Below are positions 26,253 to 46,949 of a stretch of 54,796 bases of DNA, piece by piece. Position numbers and translations under genes: made by a program. Positions within the stretch are counted from its first letter, which is position 1. Every line of letters starts with the position of its first letter. The notes below the pieces were generated by a model. It was not told the DNA's origin and ran no database searches. It worked only from the letters and a program-made list of their open reading frames with translations. Source of the DNA: Candidatus Synechococcus spongiarum SP3 (GTDB lineage: Bacteria > Cyanobacteriota > Cyanobacteriia > PCC-6307 > Cyanobiaceae); assembly GCA_001007665.1 (NCBI GenBank), contig JXQG01000005.1, forward strand, positions 1 through 54,796. The letters run 5' to 3'.

Positions 26253-28055
26253 GTGATTGGACACTCCCCTGGAGTGACTGTGACATCGGTGTCTACTGTT
26301 GGCGTCAGTGGCTATGCAGTGATGACGGAAGGCAGCAATGTCATGTTTGCCGTTTTGGTGATTGCGATGGTGCTCATCACCCTGTCAACTTTCTCGGCAG
26401 GGGGCAAGGCCCGGCGCCAAATCCGCAAGCTACGGGAGACGATGGCATCCGGCATCGTTCTCTCACCCACCCAAGCAGGCGAGACGCCCACGACCCATAG
26501 ACCTCAGGACTCTGACTACCCCCGCCATCTCCTCCAACGGGGATTGGACCATCTTCTGGCTGCGCTCCAGGCCTCTGACCAGGCCCTGACGGGCGATACA
26601 AGCCATTGGCTGAGCTATCAAGCCCGGGCCCACTGGCTTGGCAAGTCTGTGGGGCTGCGCCAACTCATGGACTGGACCCAGAAAGCCCCTGCCTTGCTGA
26701 TCTCCCTCGGTTTGCTGGGAACGTTCATTGGCCTCACCATTGCCCTGGGGGATATTGGCCAAATCCTACAGCCAGGACTTCCCCCCGCAGCGATTAGCAG
26801 CGCCTTGGCAGAGATATTAAATCCCATGGGAACAGCCTTCCGGAGCAGTTTATTGGGCCTTGCCTTCAGTCTTTTGATTATATTCAATAATCAGATTCGC
26901 GGCTGGCACACGGTCATTGAAAGTCTGGAGTCGGATCTCTCCCACTTCTTCGATGGTCAACTGGTCAAGCTGCAACAAAGAGACCCAACTCAGGGGCTCT
27001 CACCCGTGCGCAAAGAGATGGCCGGTGTTGTTCAGGGCCTGGCTACGTTCCAAAAGAAAATTGAGGCAACGGCCGAGAGCTTTGGTGACCGGCTGGTCCA
27101 CACTGTTGATCAGGCTGTGGAGCGCACCATGGGAGCGCGACTGGATGAGCTCCATAACCAGAGCTTCGTGATGGCCGAAGAAGCACGTCACGCAGTGGAG
27201 CGCATGGGAGAGGTGGCCAACCGCCTCAATGAAGCAGGTCAGGACTTTATCGGGGCGGCGGCGGCGTTTCGAGATACGGATTTCGCCACTGTGTTACACG
27301 AGAGTGTTCAGCGCATGGTCGAGAATCAGGAATCTCTGGCAAGGACAACGGCAAGCCTGTCTGAGCGCATGGGGCTCCTCAGGGAAAGCCTGACCCGCAC
27401 CCAAATGGACTGGCAGACCTTGGCTGTCGCCGCTGAACGGGAACTCAAAAGCGCCTCCATGGCCAGTGCCGAGTCAAGGGAAGCAGCCTCGGCACTGAGG
27501 AAAGCAACCTCGGCATTGAGGAAAGCAACCTCGGCACTGGTGGAAGCGTCTTCCCAACTCAGCCAAGGCAGGGATCAGTTGATTTCCGCGCAGAAGGAGC
27601 TCCAGACGGCCAACGAAGCAACCTGCGCCATCAGCGGAGACGCCAGCCAACTGGCCAAGGCCTTGACCGATACATTGGCGGTGGACCAGGCCATTGGCAG
27701 CAGCGTGGCCGCCACATGCAGCACCCTGGGGGCTGCGATTCAGTCCTGGAGCGCAAGCGTTGAGCGGACAGATCAACTGGCAGCCAACTATGTGGAGGGG
27801 ATGCAGGCGGCCACCGGCAACTCCCTCAAGAATTTGGAGCAACAGGAACAGGAGCTGCGGTCAAGCCTCAATCGCTCCCGCGACGACCTGGTCCAATTCG
27901 TCAATGGCGAAGTCCAGCAGCGACTGGCCTCCTCCATCCAGCAGGTTGACCAACAGGCCAACCAGGCTGCTTCCATGCTGGGCCCTCTCAGTGCTGGCGT
28001 TCAAGATCTGCATCGGCTGGTGTCGGAGACCATCTGGAAAAATACCCATGAGTAA
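26253..28055 (+). CDS. MotA/TolQ/ExbB-type channel protein with long coiled-coil tail (ZorA-like)
   Basis: Six hundred residues. Membrane segments lie at about 29-48, 145-166 (KAPALLISLGLLGTFIGLTI) and 192-213 (MGTAFRSSLLGLAFSLLIIF), the pattern of stator proteins that form proton or sodium channels. Residues ~230-600 are almost entirely helical/coiled coil, long enough to reach far into the cytoplasm as in ZorA. A near-perfect heptad repeat (SALRKAT) occurs near residues 412-430. The GTG at 26253 directly follows the bioA stop; ATGs at residues 24 and 31 are alternatives. It is the first of eight tightly spaced genes. Channel class is firm; the biological role is unknown. Confidence 0.82.
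   Translation: MIGHSPGVTVTSVSTVGVSGYAVMTEGSNVMFAVLVIAMVLITLSTFSAGGKARRQIRKLRETMASGIVLSPTQAGETPTTHRPQDSDYPRHLLQRGLDHLLAALQASDQALTGDTSHWLSYQARAHWLGKSVGLRQLMDWTQKAPALLISLGLLGTFIGLTIALGDIGQILQPGLPPAAISSALAEILNPMGTAFRSSLLGLAFSLLIIFNNQIRGWHTVIESLESDLSHFFDGQLVKLQQRDPTQGLSPVRKEMAGVVQGLATFQKKIEATAESFGDRLVHTVDQAVERTMGARLDELHNQSFVMAEEARHAVERMGEVANRLNEAGQDFIGAAAAFRDTDFATVLHESVQRMVENQESLARTTASLSERMGLLRESLTRTQMDWQTLAVAAERELKSASMASAESREAASALRKATSALRKATSALVEASSQLSQGRDQLISAQKELQTANEATCAISGDASQLAKALTDTLAVDQAIGSSVAATCSTLGAAIQSWSASVERTDQLAANYVEGMQAATGNSLKNLEQQEQELRSSLNRSRDDLVQFVNGEVQQRLASSIQQVDQQANQAASMLGPLSAGVQDLHRLVSETIWKNTHE
27488..27539 (+). repeat. 21-base in-frame tandem repeat coding a coiled-coil heptad
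   Basis: Unit CTCGGCAYTGAGGAAAGCAA (+C) at 27488-27508 and 27509-27529, with a partial third unit to 27539. Each copy encodes one heptad (SALRKAT), so copy-number change would lengthen the tail of the channel protein in whole heptads. Confidence 0.85.
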
Positions 28056-28097
28056 GGCGACGGCGATGGAGCGTACAACCGAGGGGGACGACAGCTA

Positions 28098-28727
28098 ATG
28101 GCCAGCGCACGACGCACCCGCGGCAAGGAGGGTGACAACGGCATCAATCCCTGGCTGGGGTACACTGACGTGCTCAGCAGCATGCTGCTGATTGTGCTCC
28201 TTGCCATGGGCCTGGTCACGCTAGCCAAGGCGCTGAATGAAAAGCCTCTTCTTCGCGAAAAGCCTCCCCTCATTTCGCTGACAGAGACTGACAACTCATT
28301 CCGATTCCCCACAGGCAACTATGGTCTCTCCCAAACCTTTATCAACGCCTTGGACGTCAGGTACACCACTGAGATTAAACCCACGATTGAAGCCTTTGAT
28401 GTAGATGTGATCGAAGTTATTGGCCACACTGACGGTCAGCCCAGTGCAAGACGGACCAGCAATCTGGACCGCCGGCTGCCAACAGTGGCGCTACAGGGGG
28501 AATTCACTGGGTTTCAAGTCGGTTCCAACGCAGGTCTGGGCCTGCTGAGGGCCATGGCCGTGAGCAGGTATCTGCAGGCTCGCCTGGAGGAGGATCAATT
28601 GGCGGTGGGCATCCGCCCCTATTCCGCATCAAGCCTTCTGGATCCCCAGGGCGACTTCAATCCTGCTCCTACCGTCAGCGATCCCACCCGTCGCCGCATT
28701 GAGATCCGCTTTACCCGCAGCTACTGA
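28098..28727 (+). CDS. MotB/OmpA-domain stator partner (ZorB-like)
   Basis: A 209-residue protein with one N-terminal membrane helix (NPWLGYTDVLSSMLLIVLLA). Asp24 sits just before it, where MotB/ZorB proteins carry the ion-binding Asp. The periplasmic part is an OmpA-like peptidoglycan-binding domain: VIEVIGHTDGQP, GLGLLRAMAVSRYLQARL, IRPYSASSLLDPQGD and TRRRIEIRF. An insertion of about 35 residues follows GHTDGQ (RRTSNLDRRLPTVALQGEF). It lies 42 bases after the channel gene and is expected to form the channel with it. Confidence 0.85.
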   Translation: MASARRTRGKEGDNGINPWLGYTDVLSSMLLIVLLAMGLVTLAKALNEKPLLREKPPLISLTETDNSFRFPTGNYGLSQTFINALDVRYTTEIKPTIEAFDVDVIEVIGHTDGQPSARRTSNLDRRLPTVALQGEFTGFQVGSNAGLGLLRAMAVSRYLQARLEEDQLAVGIRPYSASSLLDPQGDFNPAPTVSDPTRRRIEIRFTRSY

Positions 28728-28735
28728 GACTGAAG

Positions 28736-29413
28736 ATGGACCATCCCACCCCCTTGCAACGCCTCGCCATCCTGGAAGGCAATGTGGCGCGGCTGGAGCA
28801 GCAGCAGGCCACACCATCCCCTGCCCCGCCCCAGGCGGGTTCATCCAGCCGGCGCCTTCCTCAATGGACGGGTGGCAGTTTGTTGCTGGCCCAGCTGCAG
28901 CGGCGCCACCCTGAGGTACTGCAGGCCTATGAACAGCCGGCAGCGCTGGCCACAGACAAAAACGGACGGGTGAGCCTGGCCGTTGACGAGGCGGCAGCAC
29001 CGTTTGTTTTTGTTGTTACGCCCAGCGATGGCGATGCCCTGCTCTACCCGGCCGCGGATGCGCCGGATTGGCTGATGGAGACAGCGTTGATCCGTGGACT
29101 GTTTGCGTTACCCGGTGATTCCAACGGCCTGCCACTGAAGCTTGAGCGACCAGCCCGATTCATCGCGGCCCGGCAAGGGGAGGAGTGGGTGCTGCACAGC
29201 AGGGGAGAGTTGCTTCCCACAGCTTCTTCCCGCAGGCAGGCAGAAGAGGACCGGCGGCAACAAAGGCGTTGGGAAGAGTTGACCCGGCAGCAGCGGCAAC
29301 AGGCCAGCGATCTGCATGCCCTCAAGGGGCAGGTGGCCAGCCTGGAGCGTGCTCTGCAACGGCTCTGCCAACTCCAGGAGGCCGTCGTCGAGACCACCCC
29401 GCAAGAGCCATGA
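28736..29413 (+). CDS. Uncharacterised coiled-coil protein sharing a domain with the last operon gene
   Basis: A 225-residue soluble protein. A short N-terminal coiled coil (PLQRLAILEGNVARLEQQQ) and a linker lead to a ~100-residue probably beta-rich domain (about 60-165) containing PFVFVVTPSDGDALLYPA, ALIRGLFALP and ERPARFIAARQGEEWVLHSR. A C-terminal coiled coil (about 165-215) follows. The central domain aligns by eye with the C-terminus of the 305-residue protein at 36118-37035 (SKPARVQSQGKLWRVVEQGE). No known family recognised. Starts 8 bases after the OmpA gene; stop overlaps the next start (ATGA). Confidence 0.7.
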   Translation: MDHPTPLQRLAILEGNVARLEQQQATPSPAPPQAGSSSRRLPQWTGGSLLLAQLQRRHPEVLQAYEQPAALATDKNGRVSLAVDEAAAPFVFVVTPSDGDALLYPAADAPDWLMETALIRGLFALPGDSNGLPLKLERPARFIAARQGEEWVLHSRGELLPTASSRRQAEEDRRQQRRWEELTRQQRQQASDLHALKGQVASLERALQRLCQLQEAVVETTPQEP

Positions 29414-30765
29414 TGTTTCAGCGCGCTTCCCTGCGGCGGTGCGCCGCCTGGCTTGTGGGCCTGATGGGCATGGCCGCCTTCCTGGCCGGCTGCCAACCCG
29501 GACCGCAGCAGCCGGAATGCTGGACGTCCCCCTCACCTGACGCAGCCAGCAGCGACACTGCGGCCAACGTGGACGCTGACCCCTCATCCGATCACCAGAG
29601 CAACCCGGGGGAAATCACCGAGCTTTCCCAAATCGTGATCGGGCTGGATGGCAGCGGGTCGTTGCTGGGCCACCTGCAAGCTGAGGGGAATGTCTGGACT
29701 CGCACCCTGCAGGCGCTCCAACTGCTCACCGCTGCCCAACCGGCGGAGAAAGTCGTGATGCGGGTTGGGGGACCAGCCCCCGAAACGGTTTCCAGCCTGC
29801 AGACCTCGGCCAATCTCTGCTTCTTCGCGGGCTGTGACGACTTCCCCCCGGTGAGTTCCAACCTGCCTGCCCTTTGGCGGCAAGCCGGGCCTGGTCAGCT
29901 CACCATTCTGGTCTCGGACCTGGAAACCGACGCCAGCCTCACCGGAGCATTGGTGCAGGCCATTGACCGGAGCGAACCGGAGGCCATGGGTGTGATGGCT
30001 GTTCAGGCCCCCTTTAACGGTCCACTGTTCGACCCGTTCACCGGCAAGTCGGTGGGCGACCTGAACGGCAACCGGCCTCTGTATCTTTTGGTGACAGGAC
30101 CACGGGAGCCGGTGGAGACAATCCTTCGCGACGGAGCCGGGGCTTTTGGTCAGGTCCATTTGCAGCCCGTGTACAGCAGCCTGCTTCCGGTGGAGACCGG
30201 TTCGGAGGAGCCAATCCATGCGCAGCAGTTGCAACTGCTGGACGACAACGGCCAACCTGATCCTCAGCAGGGCGTTGTGGGCGGCGGGGTGCCCGTGGGA
30301 TCTCTCAGCATCGTTCCCGTCGACAACGTGCTCACGGTCCAGGTGGAGCCAGGGCAATCACGACAACTGGCCCTGAGCGTGCAGGGCATGCTGGAGGACA
30401 CCCAGGGTGTTGCCTATCCACCGGGTCAGTTGATCCTGGAGCAGTACAACCTGGAGGAGAAGCAGTGGCAGGCAGGCGCCCAGGGGATGACGGTGCAGGA
30501 CCTGCGTCTGCAGAACAGCAATCTCAGCGCCACGGTCTCCCTGGCTGCGGGACTGCCCGCCAATCTGGTGCGGGCCAAGCTGCCAGCCCACCGTAGTGTG
30601 GAAGACTGGTGGCTTGCACTGAACGCCCATGGCCATGGCGCCCATGACCCAATCGAAGGCCGCACCAAGGGCCTCTACGGTTTGCTAACCAGCCTGCAAG
30701 CCTCACGACAGGATCCTGACCCACCTCCGGCTGCAGCGTTCTGCTTTGCCCACTCCCCCACCTGA
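29410..30765 (+). CDS. Lipoprotein with von Willebrand A (MIDAS) domain
   Basis: The 451-residue product starts with a lipoprotein signal; the lipobox is LAGC with Cys28. A disordered acidic linker leads to a vWA-like fold: IVIGLDGSGSLLGHL carries a DxSxS metal site (Asp80, Ser82, Ser84), and GQLTILVSDLETDAS supplies the second acidic loop (Asp170). The C-terminal ~180 residues resemble a beta-sandwich with LSIVPVDNVLTVQVEPGQSR. Such domains bind ligands through a metal. Its location in the periplasm, next to a peptidoglycan-binding stator, suggests an external sensor or adaptor (inference). Confidence 0.78.
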   Translation: MMFQRASLRRCAAWLVGLMGMAAFLAGCQPGPQQPECWTSPSPDAASSDTAANVDADPSSDHQSNPGEITELSQIVIGLDGSGSLLGHLQAEGNVWTRTLQALQLLTAAQPAEKVVMRVGGPAPETVSSLQTSANLCFFAGCDDFPPVSSNLPALWRQAGPGQLTILVSDLETDASLTGALVQAIDRSEPEAMGVMAVQAPFNGPLFDPFTGKSVGDLNGNRPLYLLVTGPREPVETILRDGAGAFGQVHLQPVYSSLLPVETGSEEPIHAQQLQLLDDNGQPDPQQGVVGGGVPVGSLSIVPVDNVLTVQVEPGQSRQLALSVQGMLEDTQGVAYPPGQLILEQYNLEEKQWQAGAQGMTVQDLRLQNSNLSATVSLAAGLPANLVRAKLPAHRSVEDWWLALNAHGHGAHDPIEGRTKGLYGLLTSLQASRQDPDPPPAAAFCFAHSPT

Positions 30766-30766
30766 T

Positions 30767-31246
30767 ATGCGCAATCTGGTCACTCTGGTTGTCCTGCTGA
30801 CTTTAGGCGCAGTGTGCAACTTCGTCGTTTTACCCGGTCTGGCCACCAACTTCCGTAATGTTTTCGCGGCACCAGGCCTGCCAATGGAGCAGTTTTTCAA
30901 CGAGGGACCACCGACCTTGTTCAGGGTATTCTGGTTCTGCAACGTGGGTGCTGTCCTGGCGTGGGTCTACCGGACATGGCAGCGGCGCGCCGCCAGTGCC
31001 GCCAGGGTGGCCAGGATGCGGGGCTACTGGTGGATTACCGCCAGCCTGCTGCTGGCTGCAGGAGTGGTCTGCAGCGCTTTCACCATCTGGATTCCCTTCC
31101 CGCAAGTTTCCCTGATGGGTGAAGTCCTCTTGTTGGCCCTGTTGCTTGTGGATGAGGCGCTTTTCTTCTGGCTGCCCACCGTATTGGCCTCGCCCCGCAG
31201 CTACCGCCTTGCGGCGCCGGGGGCCCAGATCTTCCAAAAAACTTGA
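30767..31246 (+). CDS. Four-helix membrane protein of the motor-like operon
   Basis: A 159-residue protein with four predicted membrane helices: LVTLVVLLTLGAVCNFVVLP, FWFCNVGAVLAWVYRTW, WWITASLLLAAGVVCSAFTI and LMGEVLLLALLLVDEALFFW. No family recognised. Starts one base after the vWA lipoprotein stop, and the tubulin-like gene follows after 15 bases with a GAGGGGAGG Shine-Dalgarno-like stretch. Probably an accessory membrane subunit. Confidence 0.75.
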   Translation: MRNLVTLVVLLTLGAVCNFVVLPGLATNFRNVFAAPGLPMEQFFNEGPPTLFRVFWFCNVGAVLAWVYRTWQRRAASAARVARMRGYWWITASLLLAAGVVCSAFTIWIPFPQVSLMGEVLLLALLLVDEALFFWLPTVLASPRSYRLAAPGAQIFQKT

Positions 31247-31261
31247 GGGGAGGTTCGTTCC

Positions 31262-32755
31262 ATGAAGTTGTTTGCCATTGGTGTGGGCGGCTCCGGGGCC
31301 AAGTGCCTGGAGGCAACCATTCACTTGCACACCATTGGCTTGCTGGATCGAGAAGGAAGCCCACCCACGGAGTTGGGGGTGCTTTTCGTGGAGCCGGATC
31401 GCCAAAGCGCCTTACTGCAGAGGGCGCGCACGGCCCTGATCCGCACCCAGTCCCTGCGCAAAGCCCTGGACGGTGTGACCCAACGCTTCTGCCACGGTGG
31501 CGGGCTGACAGACTACGGCGTTTGGAATCCAGTGGAAAGCGTGGCCGGTCAGGGGTCGTTGACCATGGCTCAGATTTACACAAAACAGACCCTTGCGCAC
31601 ACATCACCGGCCCTTGGCGGCCTCATGGATTGCCTGTTCACCCAGGAGGAGCAAAAGCTGGATTTAAGAGAGGGGTTTCGTGGGAGGCCGCCCATTGGTT
31701 CTGCCCTGATGAGTGCCATCGAACTGGAGGATCACCAGACGTGGGTACGGTTCCTGGGGGACGTGCGCCAGGCCGCCAAGGGGGGACAAGACGTGTACAT
31801 CCACATGTTTGGAAGCGTATTTGGGGGGACAGGGGCATCAGGAGTGCCCACCGTAGGGCGTTTGCTGCGCAACTGGCTGAAGGAGGAGCAGATCCAGAGC
31901 ACGGCGTTGAACGCCTCCCTGCTACTGCCCTACTTCCACTTCAAGAGCCATGGCGCCGAAGACACTGGTCTCCACGCGGAAGCCAGCAACTTTCACCTCA
32001 ATACCAGCGCTGCTTTGCAATACCTCTCCCAGGACGGCGCCAGCCCCTTTGATCGAGTGTACCTCCTGGGCAGCGATGCGAAGGTGGCTTATGATTTCTC
32101 CATTGGCGGCACCAGCCAGGCCAATGGGGCCCACTTGGTGGAATTGCTTGCCACCCTGGGACCCCAGCACAGCTTTGGCAAGACGGAACAGGATGCTGCT
32201 GCCTACACCCTGAGCCGGGACAGCCAGGGCAGTGTGAATTGGAATGATCTACCCGATAGCGCGTCCACCCAAAGCGCGCTGAGCCGTGGCGCCAGGCTGG
32301 CTGTGGTGTGGCGCAACAATATCGCCCTGGATCTGGAGGCTGCAGACGGCCAATCCCTGAGGAGCTTCTCTGTGGGAGCCCCATGGGCAACACGCTTCTA
32401 CAATTCCAGCGGCGAGGAGGTGAAAACTCTGGGCAGCCGCAACGACAAAGACGTCAGGTTTGCTGCAAACCAGTGGGCCGAGACCCTGCTCACCTGGCTC
32501 CGGCAACTCTGCTCCAGCACGGGTGGCGCCTTAGAGCAAAAACTGCTGGACCCGGCCAAACTGGCGGTCCAGCAGAGACACTTGGCAAGCCTCGATGGCT
32601 TGGTCTACGACAGTGACCGTGCGACCACCGGCAAGCGGGCAACCGATGTGGAAGACTTGAAAATCAAACTGGACGACCGCCGTGCCCGGGGGTTCAATCC
32701 CCAAGGGACAGGCGGTCTACTGGACACCCTCTGGGAGCTTTGTAACCAACCATGA
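31262..32755 (+). CDS. Tubulin/FtsZ-like GTPase (tubulin-like domain protein)
   Basis: A 497-residue protein with the nucleotide-binding features of the tubulin superfamily. The N-terminal strand-loop MKLFAIGVGGSGAKCLEATI includes the GVGGSGAK phosphate loop (7-14), and the tubulin signature appears as FGSVFGGTGASGVPTVGRLL (glycine motif GGTGASG at 188-194). It is far from FtsZ and matches the architecture of the tubulin-like proteins found in accessory operons. Overlaps the following gene by ATGA, which implies stoichiometric production with the actin-fold protein. Polymer formation is not demonstrable from sequence. Confidence 0.82.
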   Translation: MKLFAIGVGGSGAKCLEATIHLHTIGLLDREGSPPTELGVLFVEPDRQSALLQRARTALIRTQSLRKALDGVTQRFCHGGGLTDYGVWNPVESVAGQGSLTMAQIYTKQTLAHTSPALGGLMDCLFTQEEQKLDLREGFRGRPPIGSALMSAIELEDHQTWVRFLGDVRQAAKGGQDVYIHMFGSVFGGTGASGVPTVGRLLRNWLKEEQIQSTALNASLLLPYFHFKSHGAEDTGLHAEASNFHLNTSAALQYLSQDGASPFDRVYLLGSDAKVAYDFSIGGTSQANGAHLVELLATLGPQHSFGKTEQDAAAYTLSRDSQGSVNWNDLPDSASTQSALSRGARLAVVWRNNIALDLEAADGQSLRSFSVGAPWATRFYNSSGEEVKTLGSRNDKDVRFAANQWAETLLTWLRQLCSSTGGALEQKLLDPAKLAVQQRHLASLDGLVYDSDRATTGKRATDVEDLKIKLDDRRARGFNPQGTGGLLDTLWELCNQP

Positions 32756-35700
32756 CCCACCTTTGGTTTCCTGACACCCAAGATACCCTCAGCAAAGGCG
32801 CCAAGCCCGGTCATTGGAAAGGCCGCAGCGCCCACGAACTGGGCACTGCGGCATCCAAGCTCAGCTTCGACGGCATCACCACGCGGATTAACTCCCTGCC
32901 AACCCCCTGGTCACGGGTGGTCCAGATTGAGCAGGCAATTACAAATACCGATTATCCTACCCGAGGCCAACTCCTGGATGAGTTGTTTGGATGTCTGGCG
33001 GTTGTGGCGCTCTCGGATCTCTACAACTTGGACCTGAAAGCAGAGATCCTGCATCTTGAGGAGCTCCGCAACCATCGGGAGCCAGCCGTGTGCCGCTTTG
33101 CAAGCAGCCTATGGGCAAATAAGCCGGAAGCATCCCAATCGGTGCTAGGGAAGCCGTCCGGGGTCATGTCCGACTGGGATCGGCTGATGATTTTCATGAT
33201 CAAGGATGCCGGGACTCATCAGAGTCAGCCCATCGGTTTTGCATCTCCCAGTAGCGTTCTCTGTCCCACTGCCCAACTGCGCTGGCCGATTGCGGGTGTG
33301 CCTTGGATTGACAAGGATAGATTTAGCGATCCCACGCCCCATCTCTCTCTTCAGCAACACAAACAGCCCTTGGCAAACTGGCTCAAACAACTGGTCGAAG
33401 ACATACTCAGTATCGAATCAAAGGCCAACACTCCCTTGGCGGACAACCTCTGCACAGTCCTAAAAGAATTTATTGATCGTCTCGTCGGAGTTCAAGCATC
33501 CACAGGACCAGATAAAGGCGAGCCAATCCCTAGTGCCAACAGAAGTATCATGGGTGGCCTTTTGGTTTATTCGGCAGCACCGGTGAAGTTAGACAAGAAT
33601 CTCTGCCGGGTGATGCTGACAGATAAGCGGGAAGGGAACCTCAAGCCGGTCATCCTTGTAGATCCCTCCATGCCGCGGCAACTACAAAAGAAGGAGAGTG
33701 AGATCCAGCTCTACGGCCCTGACACCTTGGCAACCATCTCTGGCGATGCGGAACGGCTCCGCCAGCGCTACAAGGACATCACTGTAGTGACCCCTGATGA
33801 CCTGTTTCTGGACAACCTTACCCTGCTGCCTGGAGGCAATGCCCTGGAGCATAGCTGGCTGCCGGAGAAACTGACCGCTCGCCTGGAGATGGGCAACTGG
33901 GAAGACACCACCCCTCTGCTCCCCTTCAGTGCTGGTGTGCAGAAATTGTTCAGTAGCAGCGAACTGAAAGAGAGGGTGAGCTTGGCGGTGGATCACAGCC
34001 TGGGGTGCCTGGTGGTGGAGCTGAGGCTGACGTTGGAGGGCTTTGACGAGGATCACCTTGAGTATCACCTTGAGCGCAGCTACCCCCTGAAAGAGGCCAA
34101 ACTGCTGGGGAGCGTTCCTGTAATAGCCATATGGCCGGCCATCCCTGCTGGGCGCTGGCACAAATACTGGATCTTCAGCCAGATGGTTGATGGCCTGAGC
34201 GTCGATGGAACTGAAGCCTGGGAAGGGCCTGAACGAGTGGAGTCTGGCAGTGATTCAGTGCATTACTTTTGCAGTGAACATTTTCCTGACCTTCTCAAGG
34301 TCAGCGTGGACCAACGGCCAGGTGGTTTAATCCCGCTGGAGTCGCCGGAGCCAACTAAGGACACCGCCGACCTGTGGGATGTTGGCCTGGATTTCGGCAC
34401 TTCATTCACAAATTGGGCCATCTATGATCATAATCATGCACCGCGTAGATTCCCGTTACAGTCAGCATTATGGCCAGTCACGGCAGCCAATGCCGAGGTG
34501 CAGGAGGAACTTCTCAATCGATATTTTCTGCCTCAGACAATGTATCCAGAAGGAGATAATCCACCAACAAGTACAAGCCTGAGTGTAATGGGCGGTGGCA
34601 ATAAAGTGAATTCTGATCGCGAAAAACCTCCAGAACTCTTCCATGAAGCTCGTCTCCATATTCCTCAGCCAGGTGAAGCGTTCAAATCTCATTTGCGTAC
34701 TGGATTCAAGTGGGAGCATCCAGAGCTCCAGCGCCCCTTTTTGAAACAGCTTGCACTGATGATCAGTGCCGATGCGGTGCGACGTGGAGCTGAGGAAATG
34801 ACATGGAGACTCTCTTATCCCACGGCTTTTTCCAACAACACTAGAACTCTCTATCGCGATTTTTGGCAAGAATTAACAGAGGAATTGGGCAACATTACTG
34901 GGCTTAAGCAAAGACTGAATAAAAGGCTGAATGATGGTCCTCTACTCAGCGAAGCTGTAGCCTTTGCTCGCTGTTTAGCTGAGAGACAAACGATAACATT
35001 TCAGCATACCGCATGTATGGACATTGGCGGGCGTACCACTGACATTTCTCTATGGCAGAGGAGCAGTCTTGTTCACCAGGTTTCTGTCCCATTTGCTGGC
35101 CAACACATTTGCACCAAAATCCTTAATTGTCGTCCAGAATTTGCAGCCAATCTGCTCAACGAGAACTTGAATTCTATTACCGAGGGCAGCAATAGCAGGA
35201 CAATGGAGTTGAATCGGCTCAATCTCATTGACAATTACATACGCTTTGGTAGTGAAAATCTACTTGGAAAACTGAAAATGCAACGATCTCGAACACAGAG
35301 TTCAAAAGATAAAACCTTAGAGCAATTCATCAGCTTGATGGCCTTAGCTACAGGCGGACTATATCACTATCTTGGATTTATTGTCAGATGCCTTTATGAA
35401 AAGAACACACTCAACAGGCGGGCTTGCGTGTCAGTCTGTGTGGGTGGTAACGGCGGGAAACTGCTGCACTGGCTTGCTCCTACCGGTAAGTTTGCTCAAG
35501 ACTCCAAGATCAACACCTGGTTGAACCGCATTCAAGCCTCGGCAATCGATTGGAAGGATGATGAATCCAACGATAATGAATCCAACGATGATGAATCTGC
35601 TGAGGGCACACGTCTCTCGGGAGAATTCAAGGATGAAGTGGCCATTGGCTTGGTAGTGGTGGGTGAGCGCCATATCAGCGCCCCCGATGATTTGTCGTCT

Positions 35701-36111
35701 AATCCGCCCCCGCCGTTCAGCGGCGAATCTCTGTGCATCAATGGCCATGAATTCACTGCTGAACAGCCTATTGATTTGTCTAGCATCGATCACGACGAAC
35801 CTGTCAAGACCATGGAGCTCCTTGACCTGAAGGAACTCCAGCGCTATGTGCGAGGCACGGTTAAAGCCATGGAAGGCCTGAGAGCTGATCTACAAATAGA
35901 CCCATTGGTGAAGGAGTCGGATCTGGAAAGTGCTAACAGCCGCTTAAGGACAAGGGTGTTAGAACGTGCTCAAAACCTGTGTGATCAGAGTCTGGGCGAC
36001 CCCCAACATCCCAGAAGAATCGACGAATTCTCTGTGGAGCCAGGCTTCTTCCTGGGTCTGCGGGCCCTGATAGAAGTGCTTGCCGAAGATTGGGCAGCAG
36101 ACAAATTATAG
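32752..36111 (+). CDS. Large protein with C-terminal Hsp70/actin-fold ATPase domain
   Basis: 1119 residues. The N-terminal ~540 residues are of unknown family; RINSLPTPWSRVVQIEQAIT is a conserved-looking segment. From about residue 543 an actin/Hsp70 ATPase begins: phosphate-1 WDVGLDFGTSFTNWAIYD (Asp547), phosphate-2 ACMDIGGRTTDISLW (Asp757) and adenosine motif SVCVGGNGGKLLHWL. An acidic repeat DDESNDNESNDDES lies near residue 940, just past the adenosine motif. The ATPase part (about 34380-35450) is more AT-rich than its 5' half. Coupled to the tubulin-like gene by ATGA. Confidence 0.8.
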   Translation: MTHLWFPDTQDTLSKGAKPGHWKGRSAHELGTAASKLSFDGITTRINSLPTPWSRVVQIEQAITNTDYPTRGQLLDELFGCLAVVALSDLYNLDLKAEILHLEELRNHREPAVCRFASSLWANKPEASQSVLGKPSGVMSDWDRLMIFMIKDAGTHQSQPIGFASPSSVLCPTAQLRWPIAGVPWIDKDRFSDPTPHLSLQQHKQPLANWLKQLVEDILSIESKANTPLADNLCTVLKEFIDRLVGVQASTGPDKGEPIPSANRSIMGGLLVYSAAPVKLDKNLCRVMLTDKREGNLKPVILVDPSMPRQLQKKESEIQLYGPDTLATISGDAERLRQRYKDITVVTPDDLFLDNLTLLPGGNALEHSWLPEKLTARLEMGNWEDTTPLLPFSAGVQKLFSSSELKERVSLAVDHSLGCLVVELRLTLEGFDEDHLEYHLERSYPLKEAKLLGSVPVIAIWPAIPAGRWHKYWIFSQMVDGLSVDGTEAWEGPERVESGSDSVHYFCSEHFPDLLKVSVDQRPGGLIPLESPEPTKDTADLWDVGLDFGTSFTNWAIYDHNHAPRRFPLQSALWPVTAANAEVQEELLNRYFLPQTMYPEGDNPPTSTSLSVMGGGNKVNSDREKPPELFHEARLHIPQPGEAFKSHLRTGFKWEHPELQRPFLKQLALMISADAVRRGAEEMTWRLSYPTAFSNNTRTLYRDFWQELTEELGNITGLKQRLNKRLNDGPLLSEAVAFARCLAERQTITFQHTACMDIGGRTTDISLWQRSSLVHQVSVPFAGQHICTKILNCRPEFAANLLNENLNSITEGSNSRTMELNRLNLIDNYIRFGSENLLGKLKMQRSRTQSSKDKTLEQFISLMALATGGLYHYLGFIVRCLYEKNTLNRRACVSVCVGGNGGKLLHWLAPTGKFAQDSKINTWLNRIQASAIDWKDDESNDNESNDDESAEGTRLSGEFKDEVAIGLVVVGERHISAPDDLSSNPPPPFSGESLCINGHEFTAEQPIDLSSIDHDEPVKTMELLDLKELQRYVRGTVKAMEGLRADLQIDPLVKESDLESANSRLRTRVLERAQNLCDQSLGDPQHPRRIDEFSVEPGFFLGLRALIEVLAEDWAADKL

Positions 36112-36117
36112 GGGGCT

Positions 36118-37035
36118 ATGACAATGACGTTGACGGCACAAGCACCGACTACCCCAGAACTTCCTTCGCCTGCTTCCCCTCAAGTCGGGGATTCGCCCGC
36201 CACCACTGGAGACCAGCCCGCGGCAGATATAGCTCACTCTACTTCTCCTGGGGAAACCATCACCACCGAAAGCCCACAGCCTGTCCCAGTAGACATTACC
36301 ATCGCCAGCCCTCTAACCATCGACGCCAGCCCTCTAACCATTGGCATCCTGGCTTTGGTTATTCTCAATAGTGTCCTCTCATGTCTGTTTCTAATCCTCT
36401 TCAGAAACCGGACTCAATCAAAATCAGCAAACCCGATCCAGGACTCTAGCCCACTGGAGATGATTCAGGACCAAATGAAAGAGCAGCAAAACCTGGTCCA
36501 GTCTGTGCAACAGAATCAGCAAACTCTGCTGCGGAAGACGGAAGACATGGAGCAAAGCATCAAAAGGATGGGGCGGTTGCAAACCGTGGCCACTGCCCCA
36601 CCGCCAAGGCCAAGGGTGGTAAACGAGCCTCAATCGACTCCTAGGCTGAGACTGAGCCCAGCCGATCATCTTGTTCAAGTTTTGGAGCAAGGTGGCGACC
36701 GAGCCGCTCTGGCGCAGTGGCCTGTGGTGAGGGTGAAAATCACTGCTGCCAGTCAAAACCATATCCATCGTGGCGACATTGCCGGAATTGAGTTGGAGCC
36801 CGCCCAAGGGGGAGCCAGTTTTCTGGTCTTCCAGGTCAATGGGGAGAATCTGCTTGTCCCCAACCAGGAAACCCTGGGGGTATTCCAGCGCTATCAAAGA
36901 GGGCACACGGGGCTGTTTGTCGTCAAGCGGCAACCGTCGCAACCAACTCCACAGGTCAGCAAGCCTGCTCGGGTCCAGTCGCAAGGAAAGCTCTGGCGGG
37001 TGGTGGAGCAGGGGGAAGTTCTGATTCGGGGCTAA
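36118..37035 (+). CDS. Single-pass membrane coiled-coil protein, last gene of the motor-like operon
   Basis: A 305-residue protein: a Pro/Thr-rich N-terminal ~70 residues, one membrane helix (about 74-95, TIGILALVILNSVLSCLFLI), a coiled coil (about 108-150) and a C-terminal domain (about 185-305). That domain includes RVKITAASQNHIHRGDIAGI, FLVFQVNGENLLVPNQ and SKPARVQSQGKLWRVVEQGE, and resembles the central domain of the protein at 28736-29413. A 17-base direct repeat (36304-36341, period 21) encodes the duplicated SPLTI just before the helix. Starts 6 bases after the actin-fold gene. Family unknown. Confidence 0.72.
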   Translation: MTMTLTAQAPTTPELPSPASPQVGDSPATTGDQPAADIAHSTSPGETITTESPQPVPVDITIASPLTIDASPLTIGILALVILNSVLSCLFLILFRNRTQSKSANPIQDSSPLEMIQDQMKEQQNLVQSVQQNQQTLLRKTEDMEQSIKRMGRLQTVATAPPPRPRVVNEPQSTPRLRLSPADHLVQVLEQGGDRAALAQWPVVRVKITAASQNHIHRGDIAGIELEPAQGGASFLVFQVNGENLLVPNQETLGVFQRYQRGHTGLFVVKRQPSQPTPQVSKPARVQSQGKLWRVVEQGEVLIRG

Positions 37036-37792: not shown

Positions 37793-38345
37793 TTACTTCG
37801 CTTTCCGGAGGCAATAGGCGCCGAACCTGGGCCACCCCGGCGGGCAGAGGCGACCGACTCTCAACACCGCCTCCCGCTCCTGATTGGGGGAACCGAGGCA
37901 ATAATCCCCCCAAGGCGTAAAGCCTGTGGGGCAACCTCTGCCCACCCTCGTGACCACCTCACGACGCTTGTTGCCTGTCGTGATCAGGCAGTAGTCCTGA
38001 GATGCAGACCAACCTTGGGGGCAGGCATCGCCAACTTTCTGCACGGCCTCCCGCCGATTGTTGGGCGTGCCGAGGCAGTAATTGCCCCAACCCGTGAAGC
38101 CCTGTGGACAGACTCTGCCCACTTTCACAAGGGCGCCACGGGGATTGCCGCCCTTGGCGGGAAGGCAGTAGCTGCCGGAGGCCACGTAGCCCGTGGGGCA
38201 GCGGCTTGTAGTAGGGCAACGGTCGTACGGGCTGCTGGGCCTGAGCGGGGTGGATCGTGGCCAGGCAAGCAGCCATCAACACAGCCAACGGCCCCAACGG
38301 CTGAGGGCAGACGGAAGAGTGCTGGCGCGGGAGTGGGTTGGGCAT
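37793..38345 (-). pseudogene. Secreted four-repeat Cys protein with a +1 frameshift
   Basis: The frame from the ATG at 38345 starts with a signal peptide (GPLAVLMAACLATIHPAQAQ) and leaves its native reading near 38200. One base on, the frame 38185-37793 continues with repeats of ~27-32 residues of the form CP-x-G-[FW/Y]-x6-YCL: CPQGFTGWGNYCLGTPNNRR, CPQGWSASQDYCLITTGNKR, CPTGFTPWGDYCLGSPNQER and CPPGWPRFGAYCL, plus a first copy split by the frameshift (CPTGYVASGSYCL). Each repeat has two Cys, suggesting a disulfide-linked extracellular string. The family is unknown to me. It could be a sequencing error or a real inactivation. Confidence 0.65.
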
Positions 38346-38996: not shown

Positions 38997-40502
38997 TTAT
39001 TGGCTTCTTGTGCGCCAACGCTCAATCTGCTCCAGCAGACGACTCCGAAACTCTGCCATGTCTCCACGCTTGAACTTGGCTTCAAGCCTGCCACAGAGGC
39101 GTGCCAGACTCTCTGGTTCCTTGGAAAGATCTTGAGCGAGATACTGGAGAGTATCTTTGGGGATCTGGCGATGGTCCAGACCCTGACGATAACGATTTTC
39201 AATGTTAGCCATGCTACGCTTAAGATTCCTTGCATCGATACCCAAGTCCCCAGAATAGTCATTTGCATGATTCTTCAAAACATTCCAAATCCATTGCTCA
39301 GACGCGACAGAATCAGGTAAGGTTAACAGTTCCATGCTATCTGGATATTGCTTTGCTGATCTTTTGATAGTATTGATTTGTTCTGTGGTGGCATCACCAT
39401 CCAGCACCATGAGAAAATTACCCAGACGACTAAACTTTCCCAGGGTGCGCACATGACCTGGAAATTCACTGATGCCTGTATCTCGGTCAATGATGAAGTC
39501 ACCAGGATATAGATCCAGATCAGGAATGATTTCATCCAAGACACCACGTACAATTGCTTCTGCAATTTTATCTTCACAAAGAATTGAAAGCTTATTGAGA
39601 GATTGGCCATAGAGAGCCTTCTGAAAAATATCTCGATAATTAGGCATTACCTGCACCTTATTGGTTTCAATATCACGATCAAGGAAGATTCGGCCTTCAA
39701 GAGGAACACTATAAAGCACAACAGGACTATGGGATGTTACGATAACTTGTAACTTTTGCCGCAGTGCCATGCGTTGCAACTCAAGCATCACCTGCTGTTG
39801 TGCATAGGGATGAAGACCGGCTTCAATTTCATCAATCAAAATGAAAGATTCTTCAAATTCTGATAGATCTTTTGAGAGATAAAGGATAGCCCTCTCTCCT
39901 GAAGACATGTGAAACTCTGAATACTTCGGCGTGATTTGGGTTGGTGTCTGGTTCCTGAGATCAACAAATAGAAGATCACGATTTTTTGCTCTGATTATTT
40001 TAAGATGCTGATAGTCCTGGAGCAGAATTCCTTGGGCAAAACTCAGTGAAGAGGTGGGAAGACGTTGGATTTGCGTCTGCTGTCGTGCGAGCTGCAGAAA
40101 ACTGCGTACCTCGGCTGGATTCGTAAGATTCGCCAATGTGCGCAAGTAGAATCTTCTCTGGGGTTGCTGACCTTTCTTACGACCACCATAGCTTCGGTCC
40201 CAACCACCACCTCGTATATAGGTCATGCCATGGGCTGATTTTTTGTGTAGATAGTCAAATTCCAACTCGGTTTCAATACTCATATCGCAAGCGCTTTGAT
40301 CGTTTTTATCGATGAAATCAGGGAAGACAATGCCAGGTGTCAGCCGTCGCGGTTTCCTCTCCGGATCCGGATCCTGATAGGCACAGGCACAGGCAAAGAG
40401 TATGGTGGATTTGCCGCAGCCGTTGGGACCAGCCAACACAGAGACAGGGTAGGGAAAGGAAACTGTAAGGTCATCAATACCGCGCAATTCCCTGATTCGC
40501 AC
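38997..40502 (-). CDS. OLD-family ATPase with TOPRIM-like region (5' end interrupted by a stop)
   Basis: 501 residues from a GTG at 40502. An ABC/SMC-type ATPase: Walker A AGPNGCGKST (24-33), signature-like SSGERAILYL, Walker B FILIDEIEAGLHP, and switch VIVTSHSPVVL. The C-terminal ~220 residues contain ILCEDKIAEAIVRGVL and LMVLDGDAT, the E...DxD pattern of TOPRIM nucleases in OLD/GajA-type proteins, many of which act in phage defence. In frame upstream lies ATG 40577, 6 bases after the gshB stop, but codon 9 is TAG (40553-40551). The gene may therefore be silenced or translated from the GTG. AT-rich relative to neighbours. Confidence 0.75.
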   Translation of the reverse strand: MRIRELRGIDDLTVSFPYPVSVLAGPNGCGKSTILFACACAYQDPDPERKPRRLTPGIVFPDFIDKNDQSACDMSIETELEFDYLHKKSAHGMTYIRGGGWDRSYGGRKKGQQPQRRFYLRTLANLTNPAEVRSFLQLARQQTQIQRLPTSSLSFAQGILLQDYQHLKIIRAKNRDLLFVDLRNQTPTQITPKYSEFHMSSGERAILYLSKDLSEFEESFILIDEIEAGLHPYAQQQVMLELQRMALRQKLQVIVTSHSPVVLYSVPLEGRIFLDRDIETNKVQVMPNYRDIFQKALYGQSLNKLSILCEDKIAEAIVRGVLDEIIPDLDLYPGDFIIDRDTGISEFPGHVRTLGKFSRLGNFLMVLDGDATTEQINTIKRSAKQYPDSMELLTLPDSVASEQWIWNVLKNHANDYSGDLGIDARNLKRSMANIENRYRQGLDHRQIPKDTLQYLAQDLSKEPESLARLCGRLEAKFKRGDMAEFRSRLLEQIERWRTRSQ

Positions 40503-45329: not shown

Positions 45330-46949
45330 ATGGATGTAGAGGTGCAGGGCGGCTCCCTGGCCGTCGACCTGGGGAACAGCAACACGGTTGTGGCCCACCA
45401 ACCAGCCACTGGTGGACCGCCCCGTCTGCTGCGCTTATCGGCCTACAGCGATCCGGATGAGCCGATTATCCCCACCCTGCTCTATTGCGCCAACGACTGC
45501 ACCACGTCTCCTCTGAATTCCTCCCCGCAACCCTGCCTTGTGGGACGCCAGGTGATTGAGGCTGGTCTCCTGGAGAGCATGCATAAGCCTCCCCAGCCCC
45601 CGGCTGAACTGTATTGCCACTTCAAGCGCTCCATTGGCGCCCGGCCCCGTTCCGAGCCGGTGGAGCGGGCTGAACGTGGCGGCGCTTTGTTTCTGGAGCA
45701 TCTCTGGCAGGCCCTTCAGTGGCAAATGCCACCGGAGCGGTTGGTGCTTACCGCTCCAGTGGACGCCTTCGCCGGCTATCGCCGTTGGCTGCTGGATTAC
45801 GGCAGGAGGCTTCCTGTGCCTGAACTGGCCCTGGTGGATGAGCCCACGGCGGCGGCCATTGGCTCCGGCTTGCCCCCAGGTAGCCACGTGCTGGTGGTAG
45901 ATCTGGGGGCCGGCACCAGCGATCTCGCACTTGTGCGGATTCAGGGCGGAGAAGGTCAGGCCCGGCCCATCTCCCAGTTGCTTCGTTTTAACGGGAACGA
46001 CCTGGCGCGATCCTCTCAGCATTTGCGGGTGGCCCGCGTCGTGGGGAAAGCGGGTGTGCCTGTGGGTGGCCGTGATCTGGACCACTGGATTGCCGCCCAC
46101 ATGGCCCCGCAGGTCAAGGGACCTGTGCCGGAGGCCTGGCTTCGTGCGGCGGAGCAACTCAAGTGCCAGCTTAGCGCCAATGATCAGGCAACAGTGGACG
46201 TGATCCAGGCTGAAGGGGACGTGACACCTTGGCAATTGGAACGTTCCGCACTGGAGCGTCTCCTGAAGCGGCAGGGCTTTGTACGTCTGTTGGATCACCT
46301 GTTGGAGCAGGTGGCCATTGCCGCCCGCCGTGAAGGTTTGGATCTGTTGCGGCTGACTGCTGTTCTCCCGGTTGGGGGCACAAGTTGCTTGCCCCTGGTG
46401 CGCCGCTGGATTGAGCGCCGCCTGCCTGGTGTGCCTTGCTGTGTGCGGCAGCCCCTAACAGCGGTGGCCTATGGCGCGTTGGCCCTGACCCCCAATGTGC
46501 GAGTGCGGGACGTGCTGAGCCGCGGTGTGGCGCTTCGATACTGGGATCGTCGTCAACAGGCCTACTGCTGGCATCCTCTCTACTGGGCGGGTCAGACCTG
46601 GCCAACGGAGTCCCCCCTGCAGATTCGCCTTGCCCCGGCCCATGCCCGTCAACCCGCCCTTGAATTGGTGCTGGCAGAGGTGAGCGCCGATCTGCGGCGC
46701 GAGGTTGTGTTTGTGGATGGGCAGCCCCGGTTGCTGGAGGAGCAGGCGCCGCCGGCCAGCATGAGTCCCTGGCACGCCAGCTTTCCACCCCTGCCACTCC
46801 CCGAGCAGGCCCAACCCGGTCAAGATGCCTTGCTGCTGGCGTTCAGCATCACGGATGATCGCCACCTTCGTCTCCAGGTCAAAAACCTTCTTGATGAACA
46901 ATCCGGTGCAGAATTGAAGGGTCCCCTTGACCTTGGCCCACTCCGCTGA
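45330..46949 (+). CDS. Divergent Hsp70-family protein
   Basis: A 539-residue chaperone-fold protein. Phosphate-1 is LAVDLGNSNTVVAHQP (about 10-24), phosphate-2 LVVDLGAGTSDLALVRI (about 189-205) and adenosine motif TAVLPVGGTSCLPLVRRWIE. The peptide-binding half is short and lacks the canonical DnaK substrate domain. It is a separate lineage from DnaK and from the actin-fold protein at 32752-36111. The neighbour downstream (14 bases) is a membrane-anchored protein with which it may work. Confidence 0.88.
   Translation: MDVEVQGGSLAVDLGNSNTVVAHQPATGGPPRLLRLSAYSDPDEPIIPTLLYCANDCTTSPLNSSPQPCLVGRQVIEAGLLESMHKPPQPPAELYCHFKRSIGARPRSEPVERAERGGALFLEHLWQALQWQMPPERLVLTAPVDAFAGYRRWLLDYGRRLPVPELALVDEPTAAAIGSGLPPGSHVLVVDLGAGTSDLALVRIQGGEGQARPISQLLRFNGNDLARSSQHLRVARVVGKAGVPVGGRDLDHWIAAHMAPQVKGPVPEAWLRAAEQLKCQLSANDQATVDVIQAEGDVTPWQLERSALERLLKRQGFVRLLDHLLEQVAIAARREGLDLLRLTAVLPVGGTSCLPLVRRWIERRLPGVPCCVRQPLTAVAYGALALTPNVRVRDVLSRGVALRYWDRRQQAYCWHPLYWAGQTWPTESPLQIRLAPAHARQPALELVLAEVSADLRREVVFVDGQPRLLEEQAPPASMSPWHASFPPLPLPEQAQPGQDALLLAFSITDDRHLRLQVKNLLDEQSGAELKGPLDLGPLR

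Follow-up and report, generated by a model that had tools for sequence, protein, structure and literature searches.

The window, a 54,796-nucleotide stretch of Candidatus Synechococcus spongiarum SP3 DNA, carries a tight run of eight + strand genes, here called A to H, which form an operon at 26253-37035. From the ORF coordinates, the intergenic gaps from A to H are 42, 8, -4, 1, 15, -4, and 6 bp. Genes F (31262-32755, 497 aa) and G (32752-36111, 1119 aa), which encode a tubulin-like and an actin-fold protein, are both intact ORFs, and their differences to three congeners are about twice as frequent at the third codon position as at the first two. For gene F, these values were 0.25-0.31 at the third position compared to 0.10-0.18 at the first and second, and for gene G, 0.35-0.36 compared to 0.16-0.18. 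Due to this excess of third-position differences, we consider both to be real genes under purifying selection. The preliminary description of this DNA delimited F and G well but missed ~135 residues that follow the actin core of G, as well as the six other genes of the operon.

Gene A (26253-28055, 600 aa) encodes a MotA/ExbB/ZorA-like protein, with matches to PADLOC ZorA2 (8e-11), Pfam MotA_ExbB (0.017), and NCBIfam ZorA_4 (1e-8; 34.5 bits, far below the 500-bit cut-off). Hydropathy places its membrane segments near residues 30-48, 147-165, and 193-211, followed by a long tail. The product of gene B (28098-28727, 209 aa) is MotB/ZorB/OmpA-like, matching Pfam OmpA (0.002) and PADLOC ZorB1 (8e-4, 17.0 bits), and has one membrane segment with a stator-type Asp (GYTDVLSS); the stator-type Asp, in an xFxD/YxD motif, is present in all full-length B relatives. 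Gene C (28736-29413, 225 aa) accompanies A and B and encodes a protein with a helical end and no named domain. It overlaps by ATGA with gene D (29410-30765), which encodes a lipoprotein with a LAGC lipobox and a vWA-type DGSGS motif. D had no Pfam match, so the vWA call rests on the motif and on homology: 33/53 D relatives carry DxSxS and many others DGTPS, with a lipobox in 44/53. Gene E (30767-31246, with its ATG at 30767) encodes a small protein with about four membrane segments that is a conserved neighbour in Cyanobacteriota and Nitrospirota. Gene H (36118-37035, 305 aa) encodes a protein with one membrane segment, a likely coiled coil, and a C-terminal domain. Beyond the operon, 37793-38185 (- strand) encodes a short secreted-looking protein with repeated CPxGW/CPxGF...YCL units, and similar DNA is also found near the operon in loci L017 and L019. 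About 2 kb after the operon, at 38997-40502 (- strand), lies a gene for a stand-alone ATPase (AAA_21/AAA_15) that has an additional C-terminal part and is possibly of the OLD or abortive-infection kind.

Gene F belongs to the tubulin superfamily. It scored 26.4 bits against Pfam Tubulin_2, just below the 27-bit cut-off, and 33/36 aligned family members matched this profile at E <= 0.01. An AlphaFold2 model of F (pLDDT 83, pTM 0.89) aligned with CetZ1 (Z 16.4, rmsd 3.0, 201 residues aligned) and with FtsZ (Z 15.7), many FtsZ structures aligning over model residues 1-333, and Foldseek paired it with tubulin, CetZ, and TubZ at probability 1.00. Residues G9, G10, and G12, together with G188, G189, G191, A192, and G194, were found in 36/36 aligned proteins, and the GTP-binding loops T1 (GGxG) and T4 (GGTGAxG) are kept in essentially 36/36. 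These data establish F, by sequence and models, as a predicted GTPase-fold protein of the FtsZl1/Tubulin_2 type. Past residue ~342, fold alignment and a motif check revealed neither a recognisable canonical C-terminal domain of tubulin nor a clear T7 motif. This fits the remark by Makarova and Koonin (PMC2875224) that the distal elements of FtsZl1 escaped identification. Since the tubulin match covers only residues ~1-342 and leaves the T7 motif and C-terminal domain unrecognised, F may not polymerise in the usual way.

Gene G comprises an N-terminal part (residues 1-538), an actin fold of the MreB/FtsA/Hsp70-like kind (539-983), and a C-terminal part (984-1119). The ~540 residues previously placed ahead of the actin fold are real, and AlphaFold2 models and motif conservation bear out the assignment of F and G to the tubulin and actin superfamilies. 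In the model of G (pLDDT 82.7), residues 539-983 aligned with MreB (Z 19.0, rmsd 3.8, 280 residues aligned) and FtsA (Z 17.9). The phosphate 1 motif (D547, G549, T550) and the phosphate 2 motif (D757, G759, G760, D764) were present in 41/41 proteins, while in the adenosine motif G899 was found in 41/41 and N900 in 37/41. The nucleotide-binding residues are kept in the aligned relatives of both F and G. Sequence and models together establish that G carries a predicted ATPase-type actin fold, which fell below the cut-offs for FtsA or MreB proper (Pfam FtsA, 20.9 bits against 31.8; MreB, 13.5 against 27; NCBIfam ftsA, 16.3 against 175.85). Profile searches of PDB sequences with whole G or F gave matches only to the actin phosphate-2 stretch and chance-level rows for the N-terminal part.

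Residues 1-538 of G had no sequence match, and the fold lists for G were filled by the actin domain with no match to this part among them, so we make no claim on its fold. Paralogues of G begin at about profile position 342, which marks the first ~340 residues as a separable module. Viral contigs and phage records contained no relative of G. Pfam SrfB (PF07520) had no match in the window's own genome; controls were equally without a match, so this is no proof of absence. Other actin-like genes were seen along the way. Second, N-terminally different copies lie downstream in the same cluster at L065:15443-17641, L086:15771-17963, L096:15907-18132, and L106:15341-18325, and the actin of one further locus has a 270-residue extra N-terminus. 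The window itself encodes another actin/Hsp70-fold protein outside the operon (45330-46949, + strand, 539 aa; Pfam HSP70 7e-13, MreB 1e-8).

A tubulin adjoining an FtsA-like actin could represent a division pair resembling FtsZ-FtsA, and a weak Pfam FtsA match is indeed seen in 26/41 G relatives. However, the FtsA cut-offs were missed, canonical FtsZ is encoded elsewhere in 11/11 genomes tested, and the F-G pair is present in 4/10 genomes of the window's genus and absent from the other six. With canonical FtsZ elsewhere and the pair dispensable in congeners, we ruled out a division pair, a reading to which we give almost no weight. Plasmid partition of the TubZ/ParM type was considered because five cyanobacterial plasmids carry the F-G pair, and was ruled out because most copies are on large chromosomal contigs with membrane partners.

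Across 60 relatives, all full F matches were in genomes that also encode G, with the sole exception (G030) being a contig-end fragment. Among 386 sampled cyanobacterial genomes, 25 encode F and 27 encode G, with both present in 25/25 F-bearing genomes. Among the 40 cyanobacterial loci obtained by scanning 84,980 species genomes, F is upstream of G on the same strand in 34; three of the remaining six begin at the actin gene, and the others are L083, L108, and L112. Homologous adjacency extends to further phyla, with F and G side by side in Cyanobacteriota, Nitrospirota, Bacillota, and Bacteroidota, mostly accompanied by the same vWA-type lipoprotein and small membrane protein. The order D-E-F-G is common to Cyanobacteriota and the Nitrospirota locus L122, the pair also occurs in Oscillospiraceae (L125/L126) and Bacteroidales (L149), and F and G are 30 bp apart in Prevotella (L158). 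Locus L123 has G without F. Gene order at 30 loci repeatedly combines F and G with the vWA lipoprotein, the small membrane protein, and membrane proteins with a coiled coil. In a Syntrophomonadaceae MAG (L118:2442-7424), a single 1660-residue ORF contains F at residues 3-412 and G at 529-1655, joined by an open linker without a stop, although this fusion is known from a single MAG contig and may stem from a frame error. For F and G, evolutionary distances are correlated across 36 loci (r = 0.977; 0/2000 permutations as high) and within cyanobacteria (0.964), in part because of shared species history. The F-G adjacency is old, and sequence comparisons and models show that F and G have been inherited together beside D, E, and H.

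The preliminary description was right that the stop codon of F and the start codon of G overlap as ATGA, which lies at exactly 32752-32755 (+ strand). Its further proposal, that the overlap is a sign of fixed stoichiometry, did not hold up across relatives. Translational coupling for a fixed-stoichiometry tubulin-actin copolymer would be consistent with the ATGA overlap found in the window, three congeners, and L069, and with the one fused ORF. However, most relatives lack the overlap, with F-G gaps of -4, -1, 10-60, 66-616, and up to 4169 bp, and F has no recognised T7 motif or tubulin C-terminal domain. Genes C and D overlap by ATGA in the same way as F and G, and an overlap of -4 is more frequent in bacteria than any other class. 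Given the variable gap, the identical C/D overlap, and the frequency of this class, the ATGA at F/G is weak evidence for fixed stoichiometry, and we regard such a copolymer as very unlikely.

The A/B pair adjoins the module in the window's genus and at L020, L079, L058, L059, and L114. At L122, F-G is directly followed, in the same direction, by a protein that matches MotA_ExbB just at the Pfam cut-off and then by a ZorB-like protein, and the L149 operon has a ZorB-like MotB after G, also in the same direction. Because A/B lies beside the module in only some lineages, it is a recurrent but optional part. Other relatives carry different partners. G-family actin cores stand behind fused caspase domains at L108:9176-12475 (Planktothrix rubescens) and L053:3785-7648 (minus strand), with Pfam Peptidase_C14 matches of 4e-14 and 1e-13, caspase motifs FAGHG/FSGHG and DCCYSG/DACHSG, and no adjoining tubulin gene, while at L099 an iSTAND-MoxR-vWA set is inserted between F and G.

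These variants raise the question of a conflict or anti-phage system, in which the tubulin-actin pair, a ZorAB-like motor, and a vWA sensor would form a threshold switch that triggers an effector, as in the systems of Kaur et al. 2020 or Zorya. In addition to the caspase fusions and the iSTAND-MoxR-vWA set, ZorA and ZorB are the best motor matches, and the patchy presence of the pair within the genus, the different upstream flank of congener L018, and the five plasmids are consistent with such a role. In contrast, the window operon encodes no effector nuclease and none of its eight genes matched ZorC, ZorD, or a ZorE effector in Pfam or PADLOC, the caspase and iSTAND forms are variants found elsewhere, and the operon is flanked by lpx, tRNA-independent housekeeping genes, prfA, and ybeY rather than a defence island. 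The Synechocystis counterparts, moreover, show a motility and photosynthesis phenotype. We therefore consider a conflict role possible, though doubtful, and the main rival to the explanation favoured below.

In Synechocystis sp. PCC 6803, Sll0445 has a Tubulin_2 domain, Sll0446 an FtsA domain, and Sll0447 a DivIC domain, and in insertion mutants of sll0445, sll0446, and sll0447 phototaxis was reported to be impaired and PSII fluorescence to be altered (PMC9880817, 2021). The pairing of F and G had been called unusual, which stands in part, but apparently the same pair had already been described as sll0445/sll0446 (PMC9880817). The order Tubulin_2, FtsA-like gene, coiled-coil gene in one unit is found as D-E-F-G-H in the window, as D, E, F, G, H, H in Synechocystis salina (L084), and as the seven genes D-E-F-G-H-H-H in L061, a presumed Synechocystis relative. 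Because of these two loci, F-H can be equated strongly with sll0445-0447, through domains, order, and Synechocystis relatives rather than the 6803 sequence, and from gene order H would be the positional counterpart of sll0447.

An accessory role in motility by type IV pili, like that in Synechocystis, would explain several of these observations. The sll0445-sll0447 mutants lose phototaxis, their products co-fractionate with the pilus proteins Slr2015 and Slr2018 (PMC9880817), Sll0445/Sll0446 are deregulated in a comFB mutant with pilus defects, and sll0443-sll0449 form a predicted seven-gene unit with a predicted CRP site upstream (PMC2633013). In a lexA mutant, sll0443-0445 and sll0448 are changed (PMC4759255). 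However, PilM did not exceed the cut-off in the window genome (95.8% complete) or in seven congeners, and these genomes have essentially a single T2SSE ATPase, compared to PilM and 4-5 T2SSE matches in genomes G071/G129. Gut MAGs of Bacillota and Bacteroidota contain the system as well. Since the window genome lacks PilM, type IV pili cannot fully account for the operon, and we consider a pilus role unlikely as the general function.

Given the missing PilM, the canonical FtsZ elsewhere, the patchy distribution, the L018 flank, and the plasmids, we favour an envelope assembly with host-dependent use. On balance, and by a modest degree of confidence, we propose a conserved, NTP-switched assembly that spans the envelope, is encoded by several genes, and has F and G as its cytoplasmic core. 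F, with GTP, and G, with ATP, may come together beneath the inner membrane into a scaffold switched by nucleotides. E and H would tie this scaffold to the membrane, while D would read the periplasm or outer membrane. The MotA/MotB (ZorAB-like) pair could add an ion-driven input or output in this and several other lineages. Such an assembly would link an envelope force or stress signal to a polymer or switch in the cytoplasm. The counterpart operon of Synechocystis, sll0443-sll0449, supports phototactic motility and is putatively under SYCRP1/LexA control, whereas in the window's host, without PilM, the operon would have to serve another envelope process. The folds, motifs, linkage, and co-occurrence are shown by sequence and models; physical interaction of F and G, nucleotide use, membrane coupling, and a motor role are what we infer.

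More tentatively, the tubulin-actin pair might be a shared engine of envelope-spanning machines that plugs into ZorAB-like motors (window lineage, Nitrospirota, Bacteroidota), caspase effectors, or iSTAND-MoxR-vWA switches, an idea we hold to be speculative. If true, this would define a so far undescribed class of cytoskeletal conflict/stress systems coupled to motors or effectors. In it, a tubulin- and an actin-superfamily protein would work as a single unit and, in one case, as one polypeptide. The pair itself is already known, from Synechocystis sll0445/sll0446/sll0447 in 2021 and as the FtsZl1/Tubulin_2 kind in 2010. Apparently unreported are the cross-phylum conservation of F-G, the fusion, the linked MotAB/ZorAB-like pair in several phyla, and the variants with caspases or an iSTAND-MoxR-vWA set. 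Direct pairing of the two families across several phyla, once as a fusion, offers a compact bacterial system for testing crosstalk between cytoskeletal superfamilies, with Synechocystis as an available genetic model. The F-G operon ties together scattered reports on FtsZl1 operons, the three Synechocystis phototaxis genes, ZorAB motors, and conflict-system parts.

Several known systems can be set beside this operon. FcmB, a ParM-derived cyanobacterial actin (PMC12645912), is, like G, an additional actin-like protein in cyanobacteria; this comparison is by description, and FcmB differs in its plasmid-partition origin and its partner, FcmC. For Zorya, ZorA and ZorB are the best matches of A, B, and the L122 and L149 MotB proteins, but these matches are far below the family cut-offs and the operon is without ZorC/ZorD/ZorE. 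NTP-dependent conflict systems contain tubulin, HSP70, MoxR-vWA, iSTAND, and caspase parts (Kaur et al. 2020, PMC7159879), and the F-G family shares parts with them, G variants carrying caspases or an iSTAND-MoxR-vWA set. In contrast to those systems, no DO-GTPase or GAP1 was seen in the window operon in a general Pfam scan, no P-loop GTPase matched among its eight genes (Pfam), and G is not a canonical HSP70.

FtsZl1/Pfam Tubulin_2 systems combine tubulin-superfamily, vWA, and OmpA-family proteins in one operon, cyanobacteria included, according to the accessible portion of Makarova and Koonin (2010, PMC2875224). The window likewise has a vWA protein (D, DGSGS) and an OmpA-family protein (B, OmpA match) in its operon, with the B-type gene found in a subset of relatives only. 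That portion of the description (PMC2875224) has no actin-fold or MotA partner, and F, at 497 aa, is shorter than the typical FtsZl1 with its extended coiled coil described there. G is a likely missing partner for the 2010 FtsZl1 system. Compared to Synechocystis sll0443-sll0449, the window adds MotA- and MotB-like genes and gene C upstream, its host is without PilM, and its proteins are only ~30% identical to those of Synechocystis salina, with 6803 likened via relatives. Both nevertheless have the same domain pair in the same order within one predicted unit.
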